Under the pieces are notes generated by a model. That model was not told the origin of the DNA. It saw nothing but the letters and a program-made list of their open reading frames with translations, and made no database searches. This document shows positions 49,348-57,980 of a stretch of 64,000 nucleotides of DNA, piece by piece (within the stretch, counting starts at the first letter, position 1; each line of letters begins with the position of its first letter). Both the position numbers and the translations under genes were made by a program. The stretch is taken from positions 1 to 64,000 of the forward strand of contig JARXAE010000002.1 of NCBI GenBank assembly GCA_029866005.1. The letters run 5' to 3'. This DNA is from Fimbriimonas sp. (GTDB taxonomy: Bacteria > Armatimonadota > Fimbriimonadia > Fimbriimonadales > Fimbriimonadaceae).

Positions 49348-49388
49348 CCCCCTCTCCATTCATGGAGAGGGGGTTGGGGGTGAGGACG
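49348..49388 (+). repeat. REP-like palindrome copy A
   Basis: CCCCCTCTCCAT-TC-ATGGAGAGGGGG + TTGGGGGTGAGGACG, 9 bp after secA stop. Confidence 0.9.
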
Positions 49389-49420
49389 CCTACTCACCAA
49401 CTTGGAGTCCAGAAAAAGCC

Positions 49421-49765
49421 ATGATTGACCAATCAAAAGCCCTGGACTTGCTACCCGGATTTCTAGTCATGGCTCTGGTTTGGTGGTTTCTCAACAACCA
49501 AACAGTCACGTACGGAGTCAGGCTGCTGAACTGGCAGATCACCGATAGTCTTCAGCGTAGTGCCGGAATGGACGGTAATCGAAGGCTAAAGCCAACTGAA
49601 GAAACCGCCGCAATCCAAAGTAGGGTTGCACGCGCGCTCGGGCTCGGCGCGCTCGGCTCCATCTTTTGGTGGGAAGTCGGCCAAGACAGTTGGAAAAGCA
49701 TTCTAGCCGGAGGATGGGCTCTCCTAAGCCTGCTCGTTGGGCTAAAGGTGCGTCGGAGCACGTAG
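49421..49765 (+). CDS. Hypothetical membrane protein
   Basis: 114-aa ORF with hydrophobic segments; GTG/ATG context plausible; no family recognised. Confidence 0.55.
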   Translation: MIDQSKALDLLPGFLVMALVWWFLNNQTVTYGVRLLNWQITDSLQRSAGMDGNRRLKPTEETAAIQSRVARALGLGALGSIFWWEVGQDSWKSILAGGWALLSLLVGLKVRRST

Positions 49766-49774
49766 CTTCGAAGT

Positions 49775-49796
49775 CCCCCTCTCCACTCATGGAGAG
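49775..49796 (+). repeat. REP-like palindrome copy B (partial)
   Basis: CCCCCTCTCCACTCATGGAGAG, lacks the closing GGGG and tail. Confidence 0.8.
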
Positions 49797-49808
49797 CCCA
49801 TTCCGGCT

Positions 49809-49850
49809 CCCCCTCTCCATTCATGGAGAGGGGGCTGGGGGGTGAGGACG
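49809..49850 (+). repeat. REP-like palindrome copy C, left end of DUF559 unit
   Basis: CCCCCTCTCCATTCATGGAGAGGGGG + CTGGGGGGTGAGGACG; nearly identical to copy A. Confidence 0.9.
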
Positions 49851-49887
49851 GATGCGTACCAGACCGGAAACACGCCTGGAAAAATTC

Positions 49888-50286
49888 TCAATCGCCAAGA
49901 GCTGTCGCCCTCTCTGCACAAATCTTGAGCGCGACCCCCAAGTGATCCACCATCCGGCCCTCACCGTCAATCTCGAAAAACTCCCGATTCGGAATCCGGT
50001 AAACCAAAATCCCGAAACGAGCAAGGTAAGCATCCCGAACCGCATCGCGTTCGGGATCATGTTGCTCCCCATCAAACTCGATCGCAAACTTAGCCTCGGC
50101 GCAGTAGAAATCCAGCCGATAGGGCCTGACCGGATACTCACGTCGGAACTTAAATCCCGTCTTCCGATCCCGAAGAATCTCCCAAGCAATTTGCTCCGCC
50201 ACTGAAGCCTGCTTCCGTGCCTTTCTCGCCCGAAGCGTCTCTTTCCGCGTCGGAACCGGAATGCTCTCAGAATCCGCCAAGCTCAA
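49888..50286 (-). CDS. DUF559 (PD-(D/E)XK, Vsr-like fold) endonuclease-like protein
   Basis: GFKFRREYPVRPYRLDFYCAEAKFAIEFDGEQHDPERDAVRDAYLARFGILVYRIPNREFFE matches the DUF559 pattern; TTG start with GAGGA just upstream. Confidence 0.88.
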   Translation of the reverse strand: MSLADSESIPVPTRKETLRARKARKQASVAEQIAWEILRDRKTGFKFRREYPVRPYRLDFYCAEAKFAIEFDGEQHDPERDAVRDAYLARFGILVYRIPNREFFEIDGEGRMVDHLGVALKICAERATALGD

Positions 50287-50290
50287 TCTT

Positions 50291-50331
50291 CCTCATCCCC
50301 TAAATCCCCTTCTCCATGAATGGAGAAGGGG
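50291..50331 (-). repeat. REP-like palindrome copy D, right end of DUF559 unit, inverted
   Basis: Reverse complement: CCCCTTCTCCATTCATGGAGAAGGGG + ATTTAGGGGATGAGG; stem keeps pairing through C-to-T/G-to-A covariation relative to copies A and C. Confidence 0.85.
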
Positions 50332-50470
50332 ACTTACGATTCATCCCAATTTAACAACTTCAATCTCTCGTGTCAAGTCATCCGAGCACGTTACGGTATC
50401 ACGCTGAGATCTCCCTAGAATCAGATCAACAGGTCAATGCCGGGAACTGACGAAACCACTCCAACCAGAG

Positions 50471-50568
50471 AGTAACATCCCTCCACAGATGCTCTCATTC
50501 ATCGCCGCGCTAGCCATGAACCCAACCGTCACCCAGCTCATCGAACAGTACAGAGTCGACCTAGGGAG
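50471..50568 (+). pseudogene. Detached duplicate of the 5' end of the DUF885 gene (98 bp, ungapped match to 51381-51478)
   Basis: atcgccgcgctagccatgaacccaaccgt.acccagctcatcgaacagta shared; about 83/98 identical by hand count; followed by unrelated sequence. Confidence 0.85.
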
Positions 50569-51367
50569 TGAACCGTCCTGCACCTTCGATCCAACCCGTG
50601 AGCATTTCCACGGTCTTCGATTCCCAAGTAGCCTTGTTAGATAACTGATAGGTTGCCACCTTCGCAACCACCAAGGGGTGCATGTCATAGTGGGTGGGAT
50701 CCGCACTCGCCTCCCGAGATTTCTTGGAATAAGGGCTTTTCCACGCAGACCCGAAACTTAACACGAGTTCTGCCGAAGGATCGACATCAATCGCGGAAAG
50801 ATCCCACCTAAGCCGACTCTGATCAAATCTCGCCACACAACCTCCCCCAGAACCTCCCTTGCCTTTGTACTTCAGAGGCAACTCCTCCATACGAACTGAT
50901 TTGCTGACAACAGCCCATCCCGGCTCCAGCTTCGGCACTTGCTCCTCAACCCAGTACACCTCTCCACTCATCGTCCCGCGTGGCGCATACTTCGGCGGAT
51001 TTGCGGAGCCCGGCTCTATGCCGACGAGAAGCTTGCCGACTAAGCGAATGAATCCTCGCTGCTCCGGGTCTTTTAGTTTTTTCGCTGCGGCTGGCCAGCG
51101 CTTTAAAGTTTCTTCACGCTCAAGCACATCTGCTACCAATGCCGTATTCGTTGCGCCCTTCCGTTTACTGAATGGATCGTCATCAACTCGAGTACGAGCA
51201 GTGCTGCCGTAAAACCCAGGCGAGAGCGGCGTCTGCGAAGGCATCGCCCACTCCTCGTTGACCAGCACCAGACCCTTCTGATCAACGCTGGGTGCGTCGC
51301 AGCCCACCAAAACTATCGTAATAACCAGAAAGACGAGTCCGCGCACGCCCCCATTATACAAAACCAT
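50561..51367 (-). CDS. Hypothetical lipoprotein
   Basis: Signal with lipobox-like FLVITIVLVGC; ORF start further upstream (51451) is antisense to the DUF885 gene; stop codon lies in the DUF885 duplicate. Confidence 0.65.
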   Translation of the reverse strand: MVLYNGGVRGLVFLVITIVLVGCDAPSVDQKGLVLVNEEWAMPSQTPLSPGFYGSTARTRVDDDPFSKRKGATNTALVADVLEREETLKRWPAAAKKLKDPEQRGFIRLVGKLLVGIEPGSANPPKYAPRGTMSGEVYWVEEQVPKLEPGWAVVSKSVRMEELPLKYKGKGGSGGGCVARFDQSRLRWDLSAIDVDPSAELVLSFGSAWKSPYSKKSREASADPTHYDMHPLVVAKVATYQLSNKATWESKTVEMLTGWIEGAGRFTP

Positions 51368-51398
51368 CCGGTGCAAACCAAGTAACATCCACTCATAA

Positions 51399-53051
51399 AT
51401 GCTTCCCTTGATCGCCGCGCTAGCCATGAACCCAACCGTAACCCAGCTCATCGAACAGTACCAAGCCGACCTCGGCAGCCTCGAGCGATTCTACAAAGTC
51501 GAAATCTCCGACGAACGCACCAGCAGGTTCAAAAAGTTCTACGAAGAAGCCGAAGCCAAACTCGAACAACAAGACTTCGACAAACTCAACCAAGGCCAAC
51601 GCGTCGACTACCTCCTCTTCAAAAACCATCTCGACCGCAACCTCGCCAAGCTCGACGCCTTCCAAAAGCAGATCGACGAAACCAAGCCCTTCCTCCCCTT
51701 CGCAACCGACCTCATCAAGCTCGGCCAAGACCAGCGGCGCAGCAACCCCATCCAGCCCCAACTCGCCGCCGCAACCCTCGCGAAAATCGAAACCGATCTC
51801 CCCAAGCTCAAACAAAAACTCGAAGCCAACAAAACCAACGACAAGTTCGCCGCCTTCCGCAGCGCCCGCTTCAACGACCAACTCCTCCGAAACCTCGCCG
51901 AGTGGTACCGGTTCTACAACACCTACGACCCCCAGTTCGGCTGGTGGGTCACCGAGCCCTACAACCGCACCACCAAGGCCCTCCAAGAGTTCAGCACCTT
52001 CCTCAAAGAGCGAATCTGCGGCCTAAAACCTGGCGACAATAGCCCCATCGTCGGCGACCCAATCGGCCGCCAAGCCCTCCTCAACGAGCTCAAATACGAG
52101 ATGATCCCCTACTCCCCCGAGGAGCTCATCGAGATCGCTAACCGGCAGTACGCCTGGTGCGAAACCGAAATGAAAAAGGCCGCCAAAGAGATGGGCTACG
52201 ATGACTGGCACCAGGCCCTCGAAAAGGTCAAACAAGACTACGTCCAACCCGGCGACCAGCCCCAAATGATCCGCGACCTCGCCGAAGAGGCGATCAAATA
52301 CGTCGAAGACAACGACCTCGTCACCGTCCCCCAACTCGCCAAAGAGACCTGGCGAATGACCATGATGCCCCGCGAACAGCAAAAGGTCAGCCCCTTCTTC
52401 CTCGGCGGCGAACAGATCATGGTCAGCTTCCCCACCGCCGAAATGGAGCACCAAGAAAAACTCATGAGCCTGCGCGCCAACAACATCCACTTCGCCCGCG
52501 CAACCGTCCACCACGAGCTCATCCCGGGTCACCACCTCCAGCAGTTCTACGAAAACCGCTTCAACCCCCTGCGCCAGCTCTTCTACACCCCCTTCTGGGC
52601 CGAAGGCAACGCCCTCTACTACGAATTCCTCTTCTGGGAAATGGGCTTCCCAAAAACCCCGCAAAACAAAGTCGGAATGCTCTTCTGGCGCATGCACCGC
52701 TGCGCCCGAATCATCTTCTCCCTCAGCTTCCACCTAAAGAAGATGACCGTCGAAGAGTGCGTCACCATGCTGGTCGAAAAAGTCGGCCACGAACGCGCCT
52801 CTGCCGAAGGCGAAGTCCGCCGCTCATTCGGAGGCGGCTACTCGCCTCTGTACCAAATCAGCTACATGATCGGCGCCCTCCAACTCTGGTCCCTCCGGAA
52901 CGAATTGGTCGATAGCGGAAAGATGAAGCAGAAGGACTTCCACGACCAAGTCTTCCAACAAAACAGCATCCCCATCGAAATGACTCGGGCACTGCTGACG
53001 GATCAGGCGTTGACGAAGGACTTCAAGTCATCGTGGCGGTTCTCGAACTAA
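51399..53051 (+). CDS. DUF885 family metallopeptidase-like protein
   Basis: VHHELIPGHHLQQF (HExxxGH-type), FWAEGNALYYEFLFWEMGF, GGYSPLYQISYMIGALQLWSLR typical of DUF885. Confidence 0.92.
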   Translation: MLPLIAALAMNPTVTQLIEQYQADLGSLERFYKVEISDERTSRFKKFYEEAEAKLEQQDFDKLNQGQRVDYLLFKNHLDRNLAKLDAFQKQIDETKPFLPFATDLIKLGQDQRRSNPIQPQLAAATLAKIETDLPKLKQKLEANKTNDKFAAFRSARFNDQLLRNLAEWYRFYNTYDPQFGWWVTEPYNRTTKALQEFSTFLKERICGLKPGDNSPIVGDPIGRQALLNELKYEMIPYSPEELIEIANRQYAWCETEMKKAAKEMGYDDWHQALEKVKQDYVQPGDQPQMIRDLAEEAIKYVEDNDLVTVPQLAKETWRMTMMPREQQKVSPFFLGGEQIMVSFPTAEMEHQEKLMSLRANNIHFARATVHHELIPGHHLQQFYENRFNPLRQLFYTPFWAEGNALYYEFLFWEMGFPKTPQNKVGMLFWRMHRCARIIFSLSFHLKKMTVEECVTMLVEKVGHERASAEGEVRRSFGGGYSPLYQISYMIGALQLWSLRNELVDSGKMKQKDFHDQVFQQNSIPIEMTRALLTDQALTKDFKSSWRFSN

Positions 53052-53055
53052 GAGT

Positions 53056-53081
53056 CCCCTCTCCATCCATGGAGAGGAGGG
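53056..53081 (+). repeat. REP-like palindrome copy E (degenerate)
   Basis: CCCCTCTCCAT-CC-ATGGAGAGGAGGG, 4 bp after DUF885 stop. Confidence 0.75.
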
Positions 53082-53093
53082 TCCAAGTTGGGA

Positions 53094-53149
53094 CACTGGT
53101 AAGCAGATTCTCGGAATCTCAAATAGGTTCCTGTTCGTGCTTACCAGTG
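53094..53149. other. Nested inverted repeat (structured element)
   Basis: CACTGGTAAGCA ... TGCTTACCAGTG perfect 12-bp arms, with inner GATTC-tcg-GAATC hairpin at 53106-53118. Confidence 0.7.
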
Positions 53150-53380
53150 CCACCCCTGCTACTTCTGCTTACGCAGCCCACAAGAGTGGCGCGCCGTCAA
53201 CGGTGTGCGAAGTTCCAAAGCTGTTCACGGACAAACTAGACTTCATCTCAAACACCTTCTCAACATCCGTCCGTTTGTCCGTGCCACCCTAAACTACTTC
53301 TGCTTACCCCGCCCACGTCAGTGGCCCGCCAGTGCCACCCCGGCTACTTCTGCTTGCCCTGCCCACGCCAGTGGCTCGCC
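53147..53380. repeat. Three ~50-bp degenerate repeats (53147-53196, 53281-53330, 53332-53380)
   Basis: Consensus GTGCCACCC..GCTACTTCTGCTT.CCC.GCCCACG.CAGTGGC.CGCC; last two nearly tandem. Confidence 0.8.
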
Positions 53381-53409
53381 GTTGTAAGTATTTTGCCTCA
53401 TGCGAGTCT

Positions 53410-53879: not shown

Positions 53880-56800
53880 CTAAAGTTTCCACGACGAACT
53901 AGAACCTCTAGTGTGAAATTTAAAAGGGTCATTTCCGTAACTAATGGGATCGTTCTTGAATTTAAAGATACTCCCTTCTCCCGTTTTTATATTTCTAAAG
54001 TAATGGATGTTGATTGTCTCTAGAACTCGTTTACCGTGTTCATTGAAACCGACATACTCCTCGATGACCTGGACCTTCTCGTGCGTTCCTGCATACCGAG
54101 GATCGCTCATTCGTCCCATTATGACCTCTCCACCTCCATTTCTCGCGTTTCGCATCGCAAGTTGTTCGGCAAAATTTGCCGCATAAGGCCTAAACCCTCG
54201 AGCAGCTGTTTCAGCTTCATCAGCAAGTTCTGCAATTGACCGCTGAAGGGTATACGCATTACGCTGGAGGGTATCTCGGGCAGACTGAGCGCTTACGCCA
54301 AAAAGACCCAGAACACTTTGTCCCAACCGAGTCCGTATAAGGAAACCGAAAATGGAACTCTGAATTCGGAGGCCTAAGTTCCGGATGCCTATGCTCAGTG
54401 CAAACCCCGTACCGCTGCACCTCAGACCATCAGCATCAACCGCATTGATCGGATTGTTCTCACAATACGCATACCAGTTCCTGCCGTCCTTAATCGGATC
54501 CCGCGTAATGAACCGCCCTGTGCTGGAATCGTAGTAGCGGTGCCCCAGAAGCTGGAGGCCAGTTTCGTCTTCTTGGTATCCAGCAGAGCCTGAGTAGCCG
54601 AAGGGGCCCTTCCAGGTTCCGGTGGAGCCGATGACCATTCCGTAGGCGTCGTACTTACGAGTCGCCGTCACGTTGCCCGAGATATCTGTCTGCTTAGCAA
54701 CATCCTTCAGCCCAGCATTCAGGAACGTACTCACCCCGTTACGCCGCTCCGAAACTCCAGGAGTATAAGTCGCACCAGAATCCGAAATGAGAGGCGCAGT
54801 GACGCCGGTTCCATCGCGGTGATACGTCATCCCGTTCTTACCCACCCGGGTATCGAACCCGTTGTACGTATACGTCTGACCCATGAACGTCTTCAGCCGG
54901 TCTTCATCGTCATAAGTCAGAACCGAAGGAGCGCCCATGCCGACCTTCACCGACGTCGTTCTTCCCGCCAGGTCGTAAGTGTAAGTCTTCACCCCCGCAG
55001 ACAAGAGCTTGTCGCCGTCATCATAGCTGTAGAACTCCGTCGCGCCATTAACAGTCTTACTCAGCCGGTTCCCGTTACCATCAAACGTGTATCCAGCCGA
55101 ATACCCCGGCCGAGTCTCACTCGTGAGCTGAGACGCCGCGTCATAACCATAACTCGTCGTCTCACCGTCAACGGTGTGAGAAAGAACCTCCGACACTGCA
55201 TTGTAGTTATAGCTCTCTGCCGAGATCTGCACGTTGGTCGAGATCTTCATCGTCGACTTCACCGATAGACGGTCGAGCGTATCGTAAGAGAAGAACTCCG
55301 TTGTGAACGGGTTTTGGTTGTTAGGCGCAATCTGCTTCTTCTGGCTCACCCGGCTCAGTGCGTCATAGCCTATCTCCGTTACTTCATCAAACGGATTCTT
55401 GAGCGATTTGAACCGACCGTACTGGTCGTAAGTGTAAGTCGTGGTCCCTGCAGGCTGTGTCATCGTTGCCCGCGAACCGTCAATATTGTAGGTGTAAGAA
55501 GTCACCTTCCCCGCCTGGTTCAAACTTGTCAAACGACCAACCGTGTCATAGAACCAAGAAGTCTGACCCGAAGTGTCGGTCATTGAGATCCGCCGACCTG
55601 CCGCATCGTAGGTGAACGTCGTATCCGTCATGTTCGGGTAGTCGATGACCGAGAGACGACCGAGATTGTCGTACTGATAGGAGATCTTGTTTCGACCCGA
55701 ACCCCGAAAAGCAGAGACATTCCCGTCACCGGCGTACTCATAGAATTCGGTCGTACCGTCCGGCAGGTACATGTACTTCAACTCGCCCCGATCCGTGTAT
55801 TGGTAGGAGCGGGTTTTGAGGCGTCCGTTCCGAACCGTCTTGAGCTGACCGAGCACTGTGTAAGTGTAAAGCTCCTGGTCTCCACGCGGGTTAGTCGAAG
55901 ATGTGAGCTGGTTCAACACATCGTAACTCATGTTGGAGGTGCGGTTTAAAGCATCCTTTACTTGGGTGACGTTGTCATTCAGATCGTAGGTGAATTGAGT
56001 CTGCCCACCTGCCGGGTCGGTCACTTTCCAGACGCGCAGCAGAATGTCGTACTGAATGGTCGTCGTCTTGTTCCCCGGTGCAGTCGCACTCGTTGGGAGC
56101 CCCGCGTTGTTATATACGGCGGTGGAAGTGAGACCTTCCGGGCTCGTTGTGCTGATGAGGTCGCCATCAGCGTTGTAATTCATGGTTGACGTTCGGCCGC
56201 CCGCGTCAGTAACTGAACTCGGCTGACCCCACTGGTCGTAGTTAACACTAAAGACCTGCTGTTGGAGGGCGTTGTAAGCCGTTTTGATGCTGTTCCCTTC
56301 GTAGCTGAACGTCACCGTCTTACCCATCGGGTTGGTCTTGGTTAGGACATTCCCGCGGCTATCGTAGGTGAACGTCGTCGTTTGGTTTAGCGGATTCGTT
56401 GTACTCAGCGCGTTGCCATTGGCATCACGAGTGATGTTCCAAGTTTGGTTTCGCTCGTTGCGGTACTGGGTCACATCATGCTCGGCGTTTCGGGTGATGA
56501 CCGTGGTGAATCCAGCTTCGTCCTTTCCGCCGATGTACTGGCCGTTGCTAAAGTAGTCCCAGCTCGCCTTGCCATCTTCGTTCGTGATCTTTGTCTGACC
56601 ATCCGAAACGTACTGATAACTGACGACCTTCTGGTTTGGATTAACAACAGAAACAACCCTTCCCTGTGAATCGTAGTTGTAGCGATATCTCAAAGTTGAG
56701 CTCGCTGCTACCTGCTTTGAATCTTGGTATCCCGTAAACCGAGCTCCTCCTGGGCCGCTGTACACACCACCACCGGGAAGAACCCCTTGGTTCGTAAAGT

Positions 56801-57980
56801 TGTAGTAGAACAGCCGGAACTTCTTCGCGCCGCCTGCATACTCAACATCCAGCGGATACTCGCCTTGGTTGTTGTTTCCACCTTTGACGTCAACAATTCC
56901 AGTCGGAGTCAAAAATCTGGCTTGAGTATTTGCAGGAAGATTGATACCGCTCGTAATGATGGTTGCCGTGCGGGAGCCACCAGCATCGATGACGACATCG
57001 GCGCCATTGCGCTGAATGGTCACGACTCCACCGGTTCGGTTCCGGATGCTGTAGAGAAAACCTGGGACCGTTCCAAACGGAAGCGACGTACTTGGCGTTG
57101 CGAATCTCCACGTGTCTCCGTTTTGCCAGTTCAGGCTCGCAAATCCCATTGTGGTGGTGGTGAGCGTAGCGCGAACACCCATCGGTCCGGTGTACGTTGT
57201 GAACTGGTTATGTCCTCCCGGCACCCCTGTTCGAACAAACGGTAGCGAGAGCCCGCTGGGAAGAGTCACGACGGCTTTGCCTGCGATCGTCGAGATATCG
57301 AGGCGCACGTCGTAACTATGCGTCCAAACCTTGGTTGTCCATCCTGGCGTGAGCGCCTTTAGTTGGAGTTGCAAGTCGACTGATGCTCCGCCCGGACCAG
57401 TAAAGCTTGTAACTGGAACTTGGAGGTTCATTCGGCCCGTATGAGTGTTCATCTGGCCCGAGATTTCGCCTCGACCCGCTCCTGAACCTCCGCCGCTACC
57501 TCCGGTCCCAGGAGGAGAGATGATGCCACCTCCAGATCCGCCGCCACCCGAAGGAGGTGTGGGATTGATGAGTTCATTACCACCGATGATGGATCCACCG
57601 CCGCCTTCCCATGGCACGGGCGGTCGTTCTGGGCGACCGAGCTGCATTCCGCCGCCGTTACCACCGCCAGTCCAAGTATCTGGAGGCAACGGATTCTGGC
57701 TGAAGTCGATGCCGTTATAAAAGTCAGCCATTGGCTGAGGCCACATGTAGTTTGCTCCCGGATCTGCATTCGTACTACCGACGCCAGGGTGCGCAACAGG
57801 GAGGTCTGTGTAGGTATCAGGAACGATGATGTCGCCTGGATCTGTTGGGACGACGACTATCGGATTGACTGGCTGCTGCTCGTCATCTCCTCCGCCCTGC
57901 TGAGCGTATGCAAGCGGCGCAAGTGTTTGAGCAAACAGCGCACTCACCAAGAACAATGACACAGACTTTCGGAATCTCAT
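53880..57980 (-). CDS. Secreted RHS/YD-repeat protein with variable C-terminal (toxin-like) domain
   Basis: Signal peptide; many YD repeats (GRVVSV, TFTYDSRGNVLTKTNP); RHS core end GHRYYDSSTGRFITRDPIKDGRNWYAYCENNPINAVDADGL followed by ~190-aa tip. Confidence 0.95.
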   Translation of the reverse strand: MRFRKSVSLFLVSALFAQTLAPLAYAQQGGGDDEQQPVNPIVVVPTDPGDIIVPDTYTDLPVAHPGVGSTNADPGANYMWPQPMADFYNGIDFSQNPLPPDTWTGGGNGGGMQLGRPERPPVPWEGGGGSIIGGNELINPTPPSGGGGSGGGIISPPGTGGSGGGSGAGRGEISGQMNTHTGRMNLQVPVTSFTGPGGASVDLQLQLKALTPGWTTKVWTHSYDVRLDISTIAGKAVVTLPSGLSLPFVRTGVPGGHNQFTTYTGPMGVRATLTTTTMGFASLNWQNGDTWRFATPSTSLPFGTVPGFLYSIRNRTGGVVTIQRNGADVVIDAGGSRTATIITSGINLPANTQARFLTPTGIVDVKGGNNNQGEYPLDVEYAGGAKKFRLFYYNFTNQGVLPGGGVYSGPGGARFTGYQDSKQVAASSTLRYRYNYDSQGRVVSVVNPNQKVVSYQYVSDGQTKITNEDGKASWDYFSNGQYIGGKDEAGFTTVITRNAEHDVTQYRNERNQTWNITRDANGNALSTTNPLNQTTTFTYDSRGNVLTKTNPMGKTVTFSYEGNSIKTAYNALQQQVFSVNYDQWGQPSSVTDAGGRTSTMNYNADGDLISTTSPEGLTSTAVYNNAGLPTSATAPGNKTTTIQYDILLRVWKVTDPAGGQTQFTYDLNDNVTQVKDALNRTSNMSYDVLNQLTSSTNPRGDQELYTYTVLGQLKTVRNGRLKTRSYQYTDRGELKYMYLPDGTTEFYEYAGDGNVSAFRGSGRNKISYQYDNLGRLSVIDYPNMTDTTFTYDAAGRRISMTDTSGQTSWFYDTVGRLTSLNQAGKVTSYTYNIDGSRATMTQPAGTTTYTYDQYGRFKSLKNPFDEVTEIGYDALSRVSQKKQIAPNNQNPFTTEFFSYDTLDRLSVKSTMKISTNVQISAESYNYNAVSEVLSHTVDGETTSYGYDAASQLTSETRPGYSAGYTFDGNGNRLSKTVNGATEFYSYDDGDKLLSAGVKTYTYDLAGRTTSVKVGMGAPSVLTYDDEDRLKTFMGQTYTYNGFDTRVGKNGMTYHRDGTGVTAPLISDSGATYTPGVSERRNGVSTFLNAGLKDVAKQTDISGNVTATRKYDAYGMVIGSTGTWKGPFGYSGSAGYQEDETGLQLLGHRYYDSSTGRFITRDPIKDGRNWYAYCENNPINAVDADGLRCSGTGFALSIGIRNLGLRIQSSIFGFLIRTRLGQSVLGLFGVSAQSARDTLQRNAYTLQRSIAELADEAETAARGFRPYAANFAEQLAMRNARNGGGEVIMGRMSDPRYAGTHEKVQVIEEYVGFNEHGKRVLETINIHYFRNIKTGEGSIFKFKNDPISYGNDPFKFHTRGSSSSWKL

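Follow-up and report, generated by a model that had tools for sequence, protein, structure and literature searches.

The window, that is, the whole 64,000-nucleotide stretch of Fimbriimonas sp. DNA analyzed here, carries a DUF559 nuclease gene bracketed by two inverted copies of the BoxC/PIT/TM triplex repeat, and DUF559 genes with triplex palindromes almost certainly constitute a recurrent unit. Our preferred reading, to which we assign a probability of roughly 60%, is that the locus is one copy of a widespread element made of a single-domain nuclease and triplex-forming palindromes, in which the nuclease moves the repeats. The first-pass annotation of this DNA had proposed a REPtron-like unit of a DUF559 gene and paired palindromes; such a unit indeed recurs, is present or absent between relatives and has gene-less copies. 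The repeat that the annotation took to be new and REP-like is instead the known BoxC/PIT/TM repeat, and the element that it presented as a local novelty occurs in many phyla and includes E. coli ycjD.

Table 1. Repeat copies and the nuclease gene, in window positions.
Feature	Position	Strand	Description
Copy A	49348..49386	+	Tailed, gene-less; directly after secA
Copy B	49775..49796	+	Truncated palindrome without tail; 12 bp before copy C
Copy C	49809..49848	+	Hairpin 49809-49834; purine tail GGGGGGTGAGGA at 49837-49848, tail toward the gene
DUF559 (PF04480) nuclease gene	49888..50286	-	132 aa, listed start TTG
Copy D	50290..50331	-	Hairpin 50306-50331 (read 50331-50306); tail GGGGATGAGGA at 50300-50290, tail toward the gene
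Copy E	53055..53081	+	Degenerate palindrome without tail; after the DUF885 gene

DUF559 is the sole gene between palindromes C and D in the list of open reading frames of the window. The two palindromes share one plan and are inverted, with both tails pointing inward at the DUF559 ORF, as previously described. The compensatory pair between their stems (CCCCCTCTCC/GGAGAGGGGG versus CCCCTTCTCC/GGAGAAGGGG), also reported in the first pass, is real and extends to the tail: the C>T/G>A change in the stem of D is matched by G>A in its tail (GGGGG to GGGGA), so that three positions co-vary between C and D. An exception is the orthologue of copy A in the related genome G012, which combines an A-type tail with an unchanged stem. 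Folding of copies A, C, D and E as single strands yielded z-scores of -2.3 to -5.5. The hairpins of A, C and D are each followed by a mirrored purine third strand of 10-12 nt without a REP-type GTAG/CGTC tag, and B and E have no tail. What had been read as a G-run/TGAGGA tail is the mirror of the stem and the putative third strand of a triplex.

A search with the core TCTCCATTCATGGAGA, allowing at most one mismatch, returned five matches in the 2.81 Mb genome, all at window positions 49353-53075 and at most 3.7 kb from the DUF559 gene. The letter type of the window is therefore local, with five copies, and up to 415 motif matches per genome occur in the phylum. Copies A, B and E, initially termed solitary, all exist; the term does not suit B, because it begins 34 bp before C. 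Copy A is also found in G012 and is absent from G173, and copy E is common to G173 and absent from G012.

Knowledge of BoxC repeats in E. coli goes back to the 1990s. Later named PIT and then TM-ECO, the family was found in E. coli and in over 260 further genomes; the purine arm of its hairpin is mirrored by a third strand, it forms an intrastrand triplex in vitro and it has been linked with genome instability, without a known source or partner (Holder et al. 2015, PMC4666352). That study found no association with mobile elements, and its text mentions neither DUF559, nor ycjD, nor endonucleases. If the family is defined by a C-rich/G-rich hairpin of 7 bp or more with a downstream purine third strand mirroring its 3' arm, copies A, C and D of the window are members, with the triplex itself predicted from the letters. 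They share with BoxC/PIT/TM-ECO (Hoyne and Maher 2000, 2002; Holder et al. 2015) the hairpin CCCTCTCC..GGAGAGGG, the stem-mirroring third strand GGGTGAGGG, a short second loop (TTA, CCG, CT and so on) and an intergenic, multicopy distribution that is patchy among bacteria and often comprises inverted pairs. They differ in that the DUF559-side repeat is linked to a specific nuclease gene and in that its letters change by locus while the mirror rule stays. Among 300 purine-arm hairpins beside DUF559 genes, 71% showed a stem/tail mirror match of at least 0.8, as compared with 36% (maximum 42% in 200 shuffles) after swapping tails between loci.

A single further DUF559 gene exists in the genome (contig C1, L009 4760-5108), and it also lies between inverted palindromes with inward tails, which differ in their inner letters (CCCCTCTCCCATC..GATGGGAGAGGGG). 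Across the two DUF559 loci, the rule is conserved and the letters are not. We extended the comparison to about 75 DUF559 loci from the phylum, 12 from a plasmid collection and 80 named loci picked by similarity to a hand-typed consensus, the latter spanning, for example, Pseudomonadota, Desulfobacterota, Nitrospirota, Chloroflexota, Elusimicrobia and Omnitrophica. Flank-to-flank inverted repeats (score of at least 30) were detected at 67% of 70 phylum loci versus 4.7% in a cross-locus control, and at 60% versus 17% in the named and plasmid sets, in which the consensus CCCTCTCC..GGAGAGGG, common to unrelated loci, raises the control. Perfect 8-bp hairpins reach 0.45-0.68 per 100 bp beside the DUF559 gene versus about 0.05 beyond 600 bp, and inward GGGnTGAGG reaches 0.18-0.27 per 100 bp beside the gene versus about 0.00-0.01 in the background and reversed controls. 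A mirror-tailed palindrome lies within 260 bp of the DUF559 gene at 53% of the phylum loci and 85% of the named loci, whereas the same holds for 3% of 231 other ORFs from the same loci, 0 of 16 GIY-YIG genes and 0 of 20 Y1_Tnp/RAYT genes. The hairpin density profile and the control genes rule out chance or local coincidence.

Orientation follows the gene as well, since the nearest clearly oriented palindrome directs its tail toward the DUF559 gene in 114 cases and away from it in 26 (P = 2e-14). Consecutive repeats are tail-in across the gene (34/48) and tail-out between gene-less neighbors (38/58), and orientations therefore alternate as in BIMEs. Flanking palindromes near close DUF559 homologues, the first check suggested for the proposed unit, are the rule in the phylum and among the named loci. 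About 14% of 162 DUF559 loci have no purine hairpin, and flank symmetry is weak at the DUF559 loci of the Azospirillum chromid, which were left out of the empty-site comparison. Some DUF559 genes of the congener G202 (loci L064 and L095-L099) are accompanied by palindromes of another style, GCGCCACCTTCCC..GGGAAGGA, flanked by a GACTGGCGC-type sequence, and these may represent a second class of DUF559-associated repeat.

Related species differ in whether an orthologous site holds the unit. We compared five genomes from one genus of the phylum (G020, G034, G154, G162 and G178). G020 harbors a palindrome-DUF559-palindrome unit between two genes; the flanking alignments are separated by 481 bp in G020 and by 7 bp in G034, G154 and G162 are likewise empty, and G178 has a lone hairpin at the junction. 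The flanks in this comparison are about 79% identical, a divergence of some 20% that renders the exact boundary and any target-site duplication unreadable; no locus yielded a readable target-site duplication. The C1 unit is shared by the genome under study and G012 and is absent in G204, G078 and G173, and two DUF559 loci of G138 are 75% alike over 577 bp (gene and palindromes) with outer flanks that are not collinear. Empty sites, which the first-pass annotation had suggested looking for in relatives, are thus found at DUF559 loci other than that of the window. The window and G012 match through secA, copy A and a small gene as far as about 49782, beyond which they diverge, and the DUF885 side has other neighbors in G012 and G173; this places the unit at a synteny breakpoint, where no empty site can be read. 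Between G147 and G114, the missing segment is untidy and does not amount to a clean empty site.

At the orthologous C1 site (L140), G173 carries a different, RAYT-type-looking hairpin pair, GGAGTGCGGAAACTTGTT..AACAAGTTTCCGCACTCC, with a core that resembles the palindromes beside the Y1_Tnp gene on contig C31 of the studied genome (L318). These sequences suggest that the intergenic C1 site may be a shared hotspot.

To relate copy number to the gene, we searched 200 genomes with the pattern GGAGAGGGN{0,15}GGGTGAGG, which gave 4,424 matches versus 29 for the reversed control. The median is 15 copies in genomes with a clear DUF559 match and 0 in those without (P = 9e-12), with an odds ratio of 7.6 for at least five copies, values that are uncorrected for kinship among the genomes. 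Within the family of the window, the medians are 10 and 0, respectively (P = 0.0015). The dependence of palindrome density on DUF559 implied by the first-pass proposal therefore stands in that palindromes are far rarer without the gene, but it is incomplete, as some DUF559-less genomes are rich in copies (130 in G044 and 43 in G154). Such exceptions indicate that copies can outlast the gene or do without it. G173 possesses several window-type copies, though a palindrome of another type accompanies its one full DUF559 gene.

DUF559 is a very widespread family of 'unknown function'. The window protein matches PF04480 in a profile search with 76.6 bits (cut-off 20.6), retains an intact PD-(D/E)XK-type motif (D..E-x-D-G-x-x-H) and includes all alignment-invariant residues (F47, D59, F60, E70, D72, G73, H76, D81 and R97); the catalytic-type residues show little or no variation across an alignment of 49 sequences. 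The best folds for its AlphaFold2 model (pLDDT 88) are NGO0050 (3HRL) and I-Bth0305I (3R3P), and sequence profiles agree with both structure matches. NGO0050, which belongs to the same DUF559 family as the window protein, as does E. coli YcjD, has a profile E-value of 4e-44 and about 31% identity to the window protein; I-Bth0305I has a profile E-value of 2e-5 and a Foldseek E-value of 3e-4 (prob 1.00). PvuRts1I/AbaSI, Hjc and Vsr are weaker structural matches, the last (1VSR) with a Foldseek prob of 0.90 but an E-value of 0.19. As modeled, DUF559 shares its fold and active-site layout with the Vsr-like (EDxHD) homing endonucleases. I-Bth0305I is an intron-borne homing endonuclease, whereas the window DUF559 gene is free-standing between palindromes. 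We found no function for NGO0050 or YcjD in the searchable literature. A defense-system gene was rejected, with only a weak, DpdF-type PADLOC match, as was a phage origin, with DUF559 in only 3 distant phage records.

The more alike two DUF559 proteins are, the more alike are their palindromes (Mantel rho 0.38, exceeding every one of 300 permutations), a correlation that is uncorrected for kinship and to which shared ancestry contributes. Comparison of the C1 DUF559 gene with its G012 counterpart (dN 0.057, dS 0.571, dN/dS 0.10) shows purifying selection on this gene pair.

In each palindrome of the element, a hairpin is followed by a tail that mirrors its G-rich arm, and we propose that the strand could fold as an intrastrand triplex. 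The DUF559 nuclease would recognize the hairpin or triplex when extruded, on the lagging strand or as a cruciform, and would cut there. Through host repair and recombination, the palindrome, alone or as palindrome-gene-palindrome, could then be copied to another intergenic site or into a palindrome already present; homing into existing palindromes would be an equally workable version. Gene-less palindromes would be passengers or relics, and the nuclease itself would presumably move the repeats. This logic is akin to that of REP/RAYT systems, with a homing-endonuclease-like cutter instead of a HUH transposase. PD-(D/E)XK enzymes are not known to join strands by themselves, which counts against the nuclease moving the repeats. 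By extension, and with the odds about evenly balanced, DUF559 proteins could be structure-specific nucleases for extruded hairpin or triplex DNA that spread BoxC/PIT with host repair across phyla, in other words a transposase-free class of mobile elements with triplex-forming ends.

The presence of a lone hairpin in G178 where G020 has the full unit, the repeat-rich genomes without DUF559 and the kinship of DUF559 with the homing endonuclease I-Bth0305I in sequence and fold could also be accounted for by targeting without mobilization, in which a selfish DUF559 homing gene lands in or beside palindromes that others make and spread. We consider this unlikely: the palindromes of one locus are more alike than those of different loci, which argues that they travel with the gene, palindrome type tracks protein type, and most genomes without DUF559 have few or no copies (median 0).

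A resident function is less probable still. Under this alternative, the palindromes would be bidirectional terminators or would otherwise control expression of a potentially harmful nuclease, or the nuclease would be a domesticated housekeeping trimmer of triplexes or cruciforms, and the pairing would reflect regulation or substrate instead of mobility. The strong hairpins and purifying selection are compatible with such a role, as is the conserved site of ycjD, the E. coli DUF559 gene. This gene is flanked by sapF and fabI, and BoxC copies are found on its fabI side, in the stretch separating the two. At least 80% of the query for this locus is present in 3,325 of 5,426 complete genomes, and in many of the others the match is confined to the end of sapF. 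Three of the latter that we retrieved have efflux-pump genes at the site, which PMC12817139 describes as the eefRABCD operon, swapped with ycjD. The sapF-fabI interval is therefore not a bare empty site. That article, together with our genome comparison, indicates that ycjD is conserved at one site in phylogroups A, B1 and C, and its passages on the swap contain no mention of BoxC repeats. A repeat element may mark a deletion event in the sapF-fabI interval (L251-L256). A terminator, however, has no need for a third strand that mirrors the stem and changes together with it, PIT elements had neither terminator nor promoter activity in the hands of Hoyne and Maher (cited in PMC4666352), and a resident function sits poorly with presence or absence at orthologous sites and with tens to hundreds of dispersed copies.

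Mobilization in trans by RAYT/Y1 or another transposase, with DUF559 as cargo or helper, is the least probable of the alternatives and appears very doubtful. The unit does resemble the REPtron and REPIN of REP/RAYT systems (Nunvar 2010, PMC2817692; Bertels and Rainey 2011, PMC3116915) in that (i) two inverted palindromes flank a gene, (ii) gene-less copies are dispersed, with new copies near the gene, and (iii) palindrome and protein types co-vary. The enzyme is an HUH Y1 protein there and a PD-(D/E)XK protein (DUF559) here, and the tetranucleotide tag contrasts with the triplex third strand of the DUF559-side palindrome. Y1_Tnp genes are available, with 2 in the genome and others in most of the genus, but no HUH Y1_Tnp (PF01797) gene lies between C and D, where DUF559 is alone. 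Twenty Y1 loci of the genus have their own palindromes (for example CCTAGGGC.., CCGTGGGTGC.. and GCGGAAAT..), none mirror-tailed, which implies that two palindrome-gene partnerships coexist in one genus and rules out an ordinary RAYT REPtron. Moreover, G078 lacks a Y1 match, yet it contains 83 motif copies and 3 DUF559 matches.

DUF559 offers a plausible enzyme for this repeat family, for which no origin has been established since the 1990s. The tie between DUF559 and BoxC gives both a testable role, including in E. coli K-12, in parallel to RAYTs for REPs, and a nuclease that reads triplex DNA would be a natural triplex-targeting enzyme. The searchable literature contains no paper that joins DUF559 with palindromes or BoxC/PIT; subscription journals lie outside that search, and priority is uncertain.

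The surroundings of the window unit contain further repeats. A 98-nt direct duplication of the DUF885 start region (50471-50568 and 51381-51478, 85% identical) brackets an orphan ORF of 296 aa (50561-51451, minus strand), and upstream of DUF885, G012 and G173 carry another gene. Next to copy E, at 53880-57980 on the minus strand, the ORF translation predicts a 1366-aa Rhs/YD-repeat-like protein. A further dispersed repeat, about 54 nt long (CCAGTGCCACCCCTGCTACTTCTGCTTACGC..CAGTGGC), has three copies in the window (53144-53382) and occurs on both strands in relatives (L088 9650-10434 and L093 7790-7854).
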